Assembly: GCA_003209955.1 (NCBI GenBank)
Contig: QCOD01000001.1
Coordinates: 97,330 to 144,272, forward strand
Source of the DNA: OCS116 cluster bacterium AG-430-B22
GTDB taxonomy: Bacteria > Pseudomonadota > Alphaproteobacteria > MED-G09
DNA length: 46,943 bases
Direction of reading: 5' to 3'
Shown here: positions 4,201 to 28,864 of the stretch, piece by piece
Layout: the number at the start of each line of letters is the position of its first letter
Position numbering within the stretch: position 1 is the first letter of the stretch
The notes under the pieces: model-generated
What the model was told of the DNA's origin: nothing
Database searches by the model: none
What the model saw: only the letters and a program-made list of their open reading frames with translations
Position numbers and translations under genes: made by a program

Positions 4201-4653
4201 ATGTTTAAAAATTATTTCATAATATCTATTTTGATTTTTTTAGTTAGCTGTTCTGACTCTGCTTATTTTGACCCTGGTCCATGCCCAAGAGCAGCTATAT
4301 TAAAAGGAAGTGAGACAAAAGAAATAAACAGATCAGATTTAGTTATTGAATTAAATAGGACGATAATGATTTGTGAATATAACTTAAGAAGGAAGAATAT
4401 TAATTTTGATGTTGGTATTTTTGGCGATGTTATTAACAGTGATACTGTAACATTAGAGAATTTAAACATTAATCTTTTTATAGCATTTGTTGGACCAGAT
4501 GATACAGTTATAGACAAGTGGTCAAAAAATGTTTCTGTGAAACTGAAGAATCAAAAAATAAGCTCTTTTTCAATTCCGATAGAAGGACTCAGGTCAAAGA
4601 TTGAAGAGGGTAGAACAGGTTCATCATATAAAGTTCTGATTGGTCTTGAATAA
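4201..4653 (+). CDS. Small putative lipoprotein of unknown function
   Basis: I do not recognise a named family. The 150-residue product has a short basic start, a hydrophobic stretch and a lipobox 'LVSC' with C17 as the predicted lipidated cysteine, so it is likely a periplasm-facing lipoprotein. The mature part carries a second early cysteine in 'DPGPCPRAAILKGS', another in 'IMICEYN', and then a beta-rich region ('NFDVGIFGDVIN', 'NLNINLFIAFVGPDD', 'KISSFSIPIEGL') that suggests a small sandwich fold. I chose the ATG at 4201 over an in-frame TTG at 4189 because it gives a cleaner signal peptide. It lies between divergent ispH and the glycine riboswitch. The gcv promoter begins right after its stop, so it is probably a separate transcription unit. 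Confidence 0.72.
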   Translation: MFKNYFIISILIFLVSCSDSAYFDPGPCPRAAILKGSETKEINRSDLVIELNRTIMICEYNLRRKNINFDVGIFGDVINSDTVTLENLNINLFIAFVGPDDTVIDKWSKNVSVKLKNQKISSFSIPIEGLRSKIEEGRTGSSYKVLIGLE

Positions 4654-4658
4654 CCAAA

Positions 4659-4687
4659 TTGACAAAATCTTATATGTGTTTAATTAT
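4659..4687 (+). promoter_or_regulatory. Sigma-70-type promoter of the glycine riboswitch/gcv operon
   Basis: A perfect -35 hexamer TTGACA (4659-4664) is followed after 17 bp by AATTAT (4682-4687), a fair -10. Transcription would start near 4694, about 17 bases before the first riboswitch stem. The spacing and position fit, but the -10 is imperfect in an AT-rich background. Confidence 0.6.
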
Positions 4688-4710
4688 ATAAAAAGAATCA
4701 ATTGATTCTA

Positions 4711-4877
4711 GATATTTGCGGGAGAGACTTTTATAGCGCCGAAGGAGCAACCGCCCTCGGAAACTCTCAGGCAAAAGGACCGCAAATATCATAAAACTCT
4801 GGAAAGTAAGTTTAATACTTCTCCGACGGGGTAAGCAACTTAGGTTGTCAAATCTCTCAGGGTCCAATGACAGAGGA
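4711..4877 (+). promoter_or_regulatory. Tandem glycine riboswitch (two aptamers)
   Basis: This is a classic two-aptamer glycine riboswitch ahead of the glycine cleavage operon. Aptamer 1 is closed by a perfect 10-bp P1 (4711-4720 with 4781-4790). It contains the conserved 'GCGCCGAAGGAGCAA' core and 'AAACTCTCAGGCAAAAGGACCG'-like 3' strand. Aptamer 2 has P1 CTCTG/CAGAG (4797-4801 with 4871-4875), the 'CTCCGACGGGGTAA' core and the 'AATCTCTCAGGG...GACAGAGG' end typical of the proteobacterial class. In this family glycine binding normally turns on gcv expression so that excess glycine is broken down. No U-run terminator follows the aptamers, so control is more likely translational. See the separate expression-platform entry. 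Confidence 0.96.
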
Positions 4878-4912
4878 GGGCAGTTGGAAACAACTATTCT
4901 GTCATGGAGATT
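4851..4912 (+). promoter_or_regulatory. Predicted riboswitch expression platform burying the gcvT ribosome site
   Basis: Three nested helices can form that exclude aptamer 2. AATCTCT (4851-4857) pairs with GGAGATT (4906-4912), covering the GGAGA Shine-Dalgarno. ATGACAGAG (4867-4875) pairs with TTCTGTCAT (4897-4905). AGTTG (4882-4886) pairs with CAACT (4891-4895) around a GAAA loop. The first two use the conserved 3' core and the P1 strand of aptamer 2, so glycine binding should release the ribosome site. I paired these by hand; no energy was computed. Confidence 0.6.
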
Positions 4913-4914
4913 AT

Positions 4915-6051
4915 ATGTCTGAGGCTTATTGGGGTTTAGAACAAAATCTTAAAACTACCCCTTTATACAAAGTTCACAATGATAATAGAGCAAAATTAGT
5001 ACCTTTTGCTGGATATAATTTACCTATTCAATACGAAAACGGTATTATTGCTGAGCATAATCATACGAGAAATTCTGTAAGTATTTTTGATGTTTCACAT
5101 ATGGGGCAGATTAAAATATCAGGACCAATGATTTATGATGCAATGGAAAAGATACTTCCCATTTCTTTTTCTAAAATAGCTCCTGGTCAAATTAAATATA
5201 CACAATTTCTTAATAACGAAGGTAAGATTATTGATGATCTAATGATCTGTAGAACTTTTGAGGAAGATCATGTTTGGCTTGTTGTTAATGCAGATTGCAC
5301 CCCTAAAGACCTTGATCATTTATATAATAATCTTAATAAAACCTATAAAATTGAATTAATTAAAGATAGAGCTCTAATAGCCTTACAAGGACCAAAGTCA
5401 TCAAATATTTTAAAGACTTTTTTTCAAGAAATTGATGATATGGCTTTCATGACAGCTGATTGGTTTAATTATAATAATGAAAATTTTTTTATTTCTAGAT
5501 GTGGGTATACTGGTGAAGATGGTTTTGAGATATCGATAAAAGATAGACATGCAGAAAAATTTATAAACGAACTTTTACAATGCGAAGGTGTTAAACTTGC
5601 TGGTTTGGGCGCTAGAAATTCTTTAAGAATGGAAGCAGGACTTTGTTTGTATGGAAATGACATATCATCCTCTGTATCACCAATCGAAGCTGGTTTAACT
5701 TGGTCTATTCCAAAAGAAAGAATCGAAAATGGCGGTTTTATTGGCCATGAATCGATCAAAAAAGATTTAGAAAATGGGGTTGAAAGAAAATTAGTTGGCA
5801 TTAAGCCTTTAGGTAAACTTCCTGCTAGAGAAGGGGCACAAATTCTTGATAAAAATGAAAAAACAATAGGCAAAATCACTAGTGGAGGGTACTCTCCTTC
5901 GCTCCAAGCACCAATTGCTATGGGATACATTAATTCAGATATCCTAAAAAATAATTATGAAGTTTTATTAGATGTTAGAGGTAATTTAATACCAGCAGAA
6001 ATAACTTCACTTCCTTTTGTTGAGCATAAATATTTTCGGGGTAACAAATAA
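4915..6051 (+). CDS. gcvT: Aminomethyltransferase, glycine cleavage T protein
   Basis: GcvT moves the methylene group from the aminomethyl-lipoyl arm of GcvH to tetrahydrofolate, releasing ammonia. The 378-residue product has the N-terminal 'TTPLYKVHNDNRAKLVPFAG' segment, 'SIFDVSHMGQI', and later 'GEDGFEISI', 'GARNSLRMEAGLCLYGND' and 'SPIEAGLTW', all typical of the folate-binding T protein. I place the start at the ATG at 4915, with GGAGA at 4906-4910. The frame is open further upstream, but the ATG at 4867 lies inside the 3' end of aptamer 2 and would add 16 residues with no homology to the family. It is first in the gcvT-gcvH-gcvPA-gcvPB operon, under riboswitch control. The dehydrogenase (lpd) is not in the window. 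Confidence 0.95.
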   Translation: MSEAYWGLEQNLKTTPLYKVHNDNRAKLVPFAGYNLPIQYENGIIAEHNHTRNSVSIFDVSHMGQIKISGPMIYDAMEKILPISFSKIAPGQIKYTQFLNNEGKIIDDLMICRTFEEDHVWLVVNADCTPKDLDHLYNNLNKTYKIELIKDRALIALQGPKSSNILKTFFQEIDDMAFMTADWFNYNNENFFISRCGYTGEDGFEISIKDRHAEKFINELLQCEGVKLAGLGARNSLRMEAGLCLYGNDISSSVSPIEAGLTWSIPKERIENGGFIGHESIKKDLENGVERKLVGIKPLGKLPAREGAQILDKNEKTIGKITSGGYSPSLQAPIAMGYINSDILKNNYEVLLDVRGNLIPAEITSLPFVEHKYFRGNK

Positions 6052-28488: not shown

Positions 28489-28828
28489 GTCAGATGGCTG
28501 GATGATCGCACTTTTATGTGAGGAAAGTCCGGGCTCCAAGAGACGCAGTGCCGGATAATGCCCGGCGAGGGTGACCTCAGGGAAAGTGCCACAGAAAATA
28601 TACCGCCATTTTGGTAAGGGTGAAAAGGTGCGGTAAGAGCGCACCGCAAATATGGTAACATATTTGGCAAGGCAAACCCCACTGGGAGCAAGACCAAATA
28701 GGAATAGTGATATAAATGTCTCTTTATGCTATTCGGGTAGGTTGCTAGAGATTTATGGCGACATAAATTCAAGATGAATGATCATCACCACTTTGTGGAT
28801 ACAGAACCCGGCTTATAAGCCATCTGAC
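28489..28828 (+). ncRNA. rnpB: RNase P RNA, bacterial type A
   Basis: This is the catalytic RNA that matures tRNA 5' ends, about 340 nt. The ends form a perfect 11-bp P1 (GTCAGATGGCT, 28489-28499, with its complement 28818-28828). The universal conserved cores are present: 'GAGGAAAGTCCGGGCTCC' near the 5' end, the 'AGGGTGACCTCAGGGAAAGTGCCACAGAAA'-like CR-II/III region split over 28566-28600, the 'AAACCCCACTGGGAGCAAGACCAAATAGG'-like segment, and the 3' 'ACAGAACCCGGCTTATAAGCC'. The order matches the alphaproteobacterial type. It has its own promoter and stands just upstream of the dcw operon. Short reading frames across this span on the minus strand are not genes. Confidence 0.97.
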
Positions 28829-28864
28829 AAAAAATACATTATTTTAATAAATTCTAACAAAAAG

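Follow-up and report, generated by a model that had tools for sequence, protein, structure and literature searches.

The gcvT gene of a marine bacterium studied here, which codes for a glycine-degrading enzyme, is preceded by a leader that resembles a pair of glycine aptamers, and this raises the question of how such a leader could pass a glycine signal on to the gene. The window, i.e. the whole stretch of 46,943 nucleotides that was analyzed, comes from OCS116 cluster bacterium AG-430-B22, a marine alphaproteobacterium of the PS1/OCS116 clade; positions are those of the window, and all leader features lie on its forward strand. A previous reading of the sequence alone (the sequence-only reading) had proposed that three nested helices hide the gcvT ribosome-binding site when the second aptamer is not folded.

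The gcvT Leader and Its Aptamers

The gcvT coding sequence (4915-6051, with its ATG at 4915 in the ORF list) has orthologues of 82-96% identity and is followed by gcvH and then by a split gcvP. Its Shine-Dalgarno sequence, GGAG (4906-4909), was invariant in the family comparison, which comprised 15 aligned gcvT leaders from three genera (the relatives). Directly upstream of these glycine-related genes, both aptamers exceeded the gathering score of 32 of the glycine riboswitch family RF00504, aptamer 1 (4709-4792) with 68.0 bits and aptamer 2 (4789-4883, converted from G000:C1:102118-102212) with 45.9 bits. The presence of a tandem glycine riboswitch upstream of gcvT was thereby borne out, and the leader is regarded as a putative glycine-binding element. 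Membership of the glycine-GGAnGA family RF03166, with which the leader has the Rfam clan and the tandem layout in common, was rejected because the score of 68.4 bits was below the gathering score of 110.

A promoter-like sequence, TTGACA-N17-AATTAT (4659-4687; 10 of 12 matches in a consensus scan), would weakly suggest a transcription start near 4694; two such sites were found in the region and 1.7 were expected by shuffling, so that the signal is hardly above chance. The palindrome GAATCAATTGATTC (4695-4710), directly 5' of aptamer 1, forms a hairpin and is not retained in the other genera. An upstream in-frame ATG at 4867 was rejected as the gcvT start and attributed to chance, since the third genus has ACG or AAG in place of this codon and the distance to the gcvT start differs in leader L016. 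Elsewhere in the window lies an ordinary, full-length RNase P RNA of bacterial class A (28490-28831, 326.9 bits).

A Switching Helix That Excludes P1 of Aptamer 2

The three helices of the sequence-only reading, an outer helix (4851-4857/4906-4912), a switching helix (4867-4875/4897-4905) and an inner hairpin (4882-4886/4891-4895), were all found exactly where it had placed them. The switching helix, with nine pairs including one G-U, joins AUGACAGAG (4867-4875) to the anti-P1 strand UUCUGUCAU (4897-4905). Nucleotides 4871-4875 double as the 3' strand of aptamer-2 P1, which in the ON state would pair with CUCUG (4797-4801), a strand invariant in the 15 relatives, and because both helices need these five nucleotides they exclude each other, as had been claimed. 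In a folding check that combined seven 3' ends with three 5' ends of the window's leader, the ligand-free ensembles favored the switching helix with a probability of 0.78-0.99 over the 21 choices of ends, and forcing aptamer-2 P1 cost 5.0-8.6 kcal/mol.

When the 3' half of aptamer 2 was paired with the 34 nucleotides before the start codon, RNAduplex chose the outer and switching helices unaided; the z value was -2.06, and 9 of 200 dinucleotide shuffles did equally well. This signal from a single sequence is modest, and comparison was therefore needed. The core of the switching helix, GACAG (4869-4873) and CUGUC (4899-4903), was invariant in 15 of 15 relatives while its neighbors varied, and the end pairs were retained in 9-12 of them. 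CUGUC lies outside the aptamer amid variable sequence, and no alternative partner was found for it; its invariance therefore supports the pairing. Because GACAG/CUGUC never varies, covariation of these strands is not possible among close relatives, and the outer and switching helices together showed one two-sided change in the 15 leaders, which 104 of 500 shuffles matched. The covariation looked for in close relatives was thus found for the inner hairpin and not for the other two helices.

Computed Masking of the Shine-Dalgarno Sequence

In the sequence-only reading the Shine-Dalgarno sequence was covered by AAUCUCU (4851-4857) through the seven pairs of the outer helix, the last one a U-G. 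The computed OFF state did mask this site, but mostly through UCC (4863-4865); this strand lies beside the switching helix and paired with GGA (4906-4908) with a probability of 0.68-0.81 without ligand over the 21 choices of ends. UCC was invariant in the 15 relatives and is the counterpart of the GGUCC strand that coevolves in the class (see below).

We consider it unlikely that the exact three-helix structure, with AAUCUCU as the chief cover, represents the OFF state. RNAduplex selects the outer helix, but it ignores intrastrand pairing; CUCU/GGAG, the only part of this helix that is conserved, was kept in 15 of 15 relatives, and both halves are under other constraints; and the model of the Neisseria gonorrhoeae gcvT leader employs the aptamer-2 segment CUCAGG, which adjoins this strand. 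However, the outer helix reached a probability of just 0.00-0.07 in all 21 ensembles, its AAU/AUU pairs (4851-4853/4910-4912) were retained in only 12, 5 and 8 of the 15 relatives, and it leaves a 9-nt bulge in which the invariant UCC goes unused. AAUCUCU is therefore a minor partner, and its helix with GGAGAUU is the least secure element of the earlier model. The computed release of the Shine-Dalgarno sequence in the P1-forced fold was sensitive to the choice of 3' end, with values between 0.21 and 0.92, and for this reason was dropped as main evidence for an ON state.

The Inner Hairpin and the P5 Pseudoknot

The inner hairpin AGUUG-GAAA-CAACU (4882-4895; five pairs and a GAAA loop) was present in 15 of 15 relatives, in the forms AGUUG/CAACU, AGUUGCU/AGCAACU, AGGUUU/AAACCU and AGGCUU/AAGCCU, and we take these two-sided changes to be real covariation. 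Its probability was 0.92-0.95 in both the free and the P1-forced ensembles, with 0.93 in the former and 0.95 in the latter, so that it fits the ON as well as the OFF state. The hairpin thus exists and covaries, but it is not the switch itself.

The earlier OFF model, although right in its core, was incomplete in that it missed P5 and left the conserved G-rich strand 4876-4881 unexplained. P5 has been described, as summarized in PMC13104608 with reference to Torgerson et al. 2020, as a pseudoknot that joins a C-rich P3b loop to a G-rich strand immediately following aptamer 2. In the window, GCCCUC in the P3b loop of aptamer 1 (4753-4758), invariant in the 15 relatives, is the complement of GAGGGC (4876-4881), which directly follows the P1 strand of aptamer 2. 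Across the class both strands change together (GCCCUC/GAGGGC, CGCUCUC/GAGAGCG, CGACCCC/GGGGUCG, CGAGCCCC/GGGGCUCG and UCCCG/CGGGA). On their own, the two P5 strands of the window give a duplex of -10.4 kcal/mol, and P5, glycine and tertiary contacts together could cover the cost of switching. The OFF drawing has strand 4876-4881 as an internal loop, flanked by the switching helix on one side and the inner hairpin on the other, so that the RNA probably cannot form P5 and the OFF fold at once. The sequence GAGGAGGG (4873-4880) was rejected as a second ribosome site because P1 and P5 account for its conservation.

Coupling of Aptamer 2 to the Start Region across the Class

The comparison was extended to 73 alphaproteobacterial gcvT leaders, mostly one per family. 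The 3' half of aptamer 2 paired with its own pre-start region with a mean z of -1.61 against shuffles, and own pairing was better than pairing with the regions of swapped species by 2.3 kcal/mol (z -8.1, 0 of 5000 permutations). Restricted to the last 20 nt, the same test gave a z of -8.6, and region -34 to -17 gave -1.6. The 3' half of aptamer 1, used as a control, gave +0.7, and the small effects seen with the first 37 nt of the coding sequence (z -2.3) and with the P3b region (z -2.8) suggest a slight contribution from base composition. Swaps matched for GC content left a difference of -2.14 +/- 0.49 kcal/mol, as against +1.00, -0.46 and -0.59 in the controls, and own pairing was superior in 51 of the 73 leaders, so that the design is not clear in every one; for the window's aptamer, 27 of the 73 pre-start regions paired at least as well as its own, many of them far GC-richer.

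Exact complements likewise exceeded those of swapped pairs (GGUCC/GGACC, AGGUUCC/GGAACCU, AGGUCUCC/GGAGACCU, GGUCGUG/CACGACC and GGUUC/GAACC), and 28 of the 73 leaders, where 9.6 would be expected, carried the anti-P1 motif [CU]UGU[CU], the complement of the P1 strand, within their last 34 nt, in most cases 9-19 nt upstream of the start. This class-wide coupling indicates that the OFF structure of the window is a variant of a class design, in which an anti-P1 strand comes first and a sequence that pairs with the GGUCC strand comes next, overlapping the Shine-Dalgarno sequence. The earlier model is thus not special to this genome. We would give even chances to the broader view that alphaproteobacterial gcvT leaders share a single expression platform, built from a start region and an aptamer-2 3' half that have coevolved, with the intervening strand taking part in P5, so that docking and masking are coupled by strand exchange. 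No description of such a coevolving class-wide platform was found in the literature searched, a search that had key subscription papers outside its reach.

Several leaders apart from this sample were also observed. Six alphaproteobacterial glycine riboswitch loci (L087, L071, L075, L076, L109 and L112) had no gcvT match in the fetched stretch, and some of them may control other genes. In the assembly of one relative, gcvT-like genes are preceded by two further tandem glycine riboswitches, L003 (G008:C29) and L117 (G008:C68), whose platform is different; the aptamer-2 P1 of L003 has a 5' strand, CGUAUUAACUCU, that can pair over 12 bp with AGAGUUAAUAUG, which includes the start codon. These two loci look foreign to that relative's genome, possibly as SAR11-like contamination. 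Eleven leaders from outside the Alphaproteobacteria were inspected by eye, and several regulate other genes; five of the non-alphaproteobacterial loci (L118, L119, L121, L123 and L141) are tandem switches before FAD-dependent oxidoreductase-like genes, in which aptamer-2 bases, again judged by eye, complement the pre-start region, e.g. CCAGGAC/GUCCUGG in L123.

Alternatives and Proposed Mechanism

Control by transcription termination, intrinsic or Rho-dependent, with the start-codon pairing in a secondary role, has for the intrinsic kind a precedent in the tandem glycine ON switches of Bacillus subtilis, which PMC13104608 also discusses, and a Rho-dependent version is compatible with the sequence. 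However, no terminator-like site was found in 4600-5100 and no U-run follows the hairpin, so that the terminator hairpin with U-run of the B. subtilis type is lacking, and in N. gonorrhoeae the glycine response survived a Rho inhibitor (PMC13104608). Termination as the controlling step is thus quite unlikely. That the complementarity is a by-product of a purine-rich Shine-Dalgarno sequence facing the pyrimidine-rich CUCUC of the aptamer, with no switch depending on it, is scarcely credible, because, although CUCU and GGAG are each otherwise constrained and invariant in the family, leader swaps retain the composition of both elements yet lose the 2.3 kcal/mol, the aptamer-1 strand bears CUCUC equally and showed no coupling, and the invariant CUGUC lies outside the Shine-Dalgarno sequence without another partner.

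The reading that we prefer is that the leader is very probably a tandem glycine riboswitch that turns translation on by strand exchange, without a terminator. As in translational ON switches of the N. gonorrhoeae type, an aptamer-2 strand is complementary to the region before the gcvT start and 4600-5100 holds no intrinsic terminator; together with the coupling in 73 leaders, this upholds the translational ON switch of the sequence-only reading as very probable. What the analysis shows is the set of pairings and how well they are conserved, together with their coupling in the comparison across species and a computed ligand-free ensemble that favors the OFF fold; that the RNA binds glycine, switches in the ON direction and blocks the ribosome is inferred.

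With glycine, both aptamers would fold and P1 of aptamer 2 (4797-4801/4871-4875) would form, GAGGGC (4876-4881) would dock in the P3b loop of aptamer 1 as P5 with the hairpin 4882-4895 next to it, and the Shine-Dalgarno sequence (4906-4909) would not be engaged by the aptamer. In the absence of glycine, CUGUC (4899-4903) would capture GACAG (4869-4873) from P1 to build helix 4867-4875/4897-4905, and UCC (4863-4865), less often CUCU (4854-4857), would mask GGAG, so that binding of the 30S subunit would be blocked.

Relation to Known Glycine Riboswitches

The kind of switch proposed here is known, and the sequence-only reading had its core right, gave too much weight to the outer helix and lacked P5. 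The tandem glycine ON switch of B. subtilis gcvT acts through intrinsic transcription termination; it resembles the present leader in being glycine-ON and in joining two aptamers to one expression platform, and it differs in its use of termination, as no terminator was found here. The pairing of a C-rich P3b loop with G-rich sequence directly 3' of aptamer 2, as found in the window, is also a feature of the P5-bearing tandem glycine ON switches of Torgerson et al. 2020, as far as these are presented in PMC13104608.

The closest known system is the gcvT switch of N. gonorrhoeae (PMC13104608, 2026), which shares with the present leader the tandem aptamers upstream of gcvT, an ON switch without a terminator, a possible P5, and OFF pairing between a segment of the 3' half of aptamer 2 and bases just 5' of the gcvT start. 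For that leader, prediction gave no intrinsic terminator, a Rho inhibitor left the glycine response in place, and mutation of aptamer-2 U224, of CUCAGG (in a truncated leader) or of pre-start bases raised expression without glycine (PMC13104608). In N. gonorrhoeae, CUCAGG pairs with UUGAGA in an extended hairpin, whereas here the anti-P1 strand CUGUC and UCC/GGA are used; the gonococcal site is additionally bound by the sibling sRNAs (PMC13104608), and its OFF pairing was tested by mutation, whereas the one described here is known by comparison and computation. In the literature searched, with key subscription papers outside it, N. gonorrhoeae alone (2026) offers a detailed, mutation-tested OFF model of this type.

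In agreement with the experiments in N. gonorrhoeae, the direction proposed here is glycine-ON. To these known systems the present analysis adds a base-level model of strand exchange offered for terminator-less tandem glycine switches of a whole bacterial class, it proposes that the known P5 pseudoknot competes with the OFF fold, and it provides, in the comparison of own with swapped leaders, a simple test that is applicable to other translational riboswitches.
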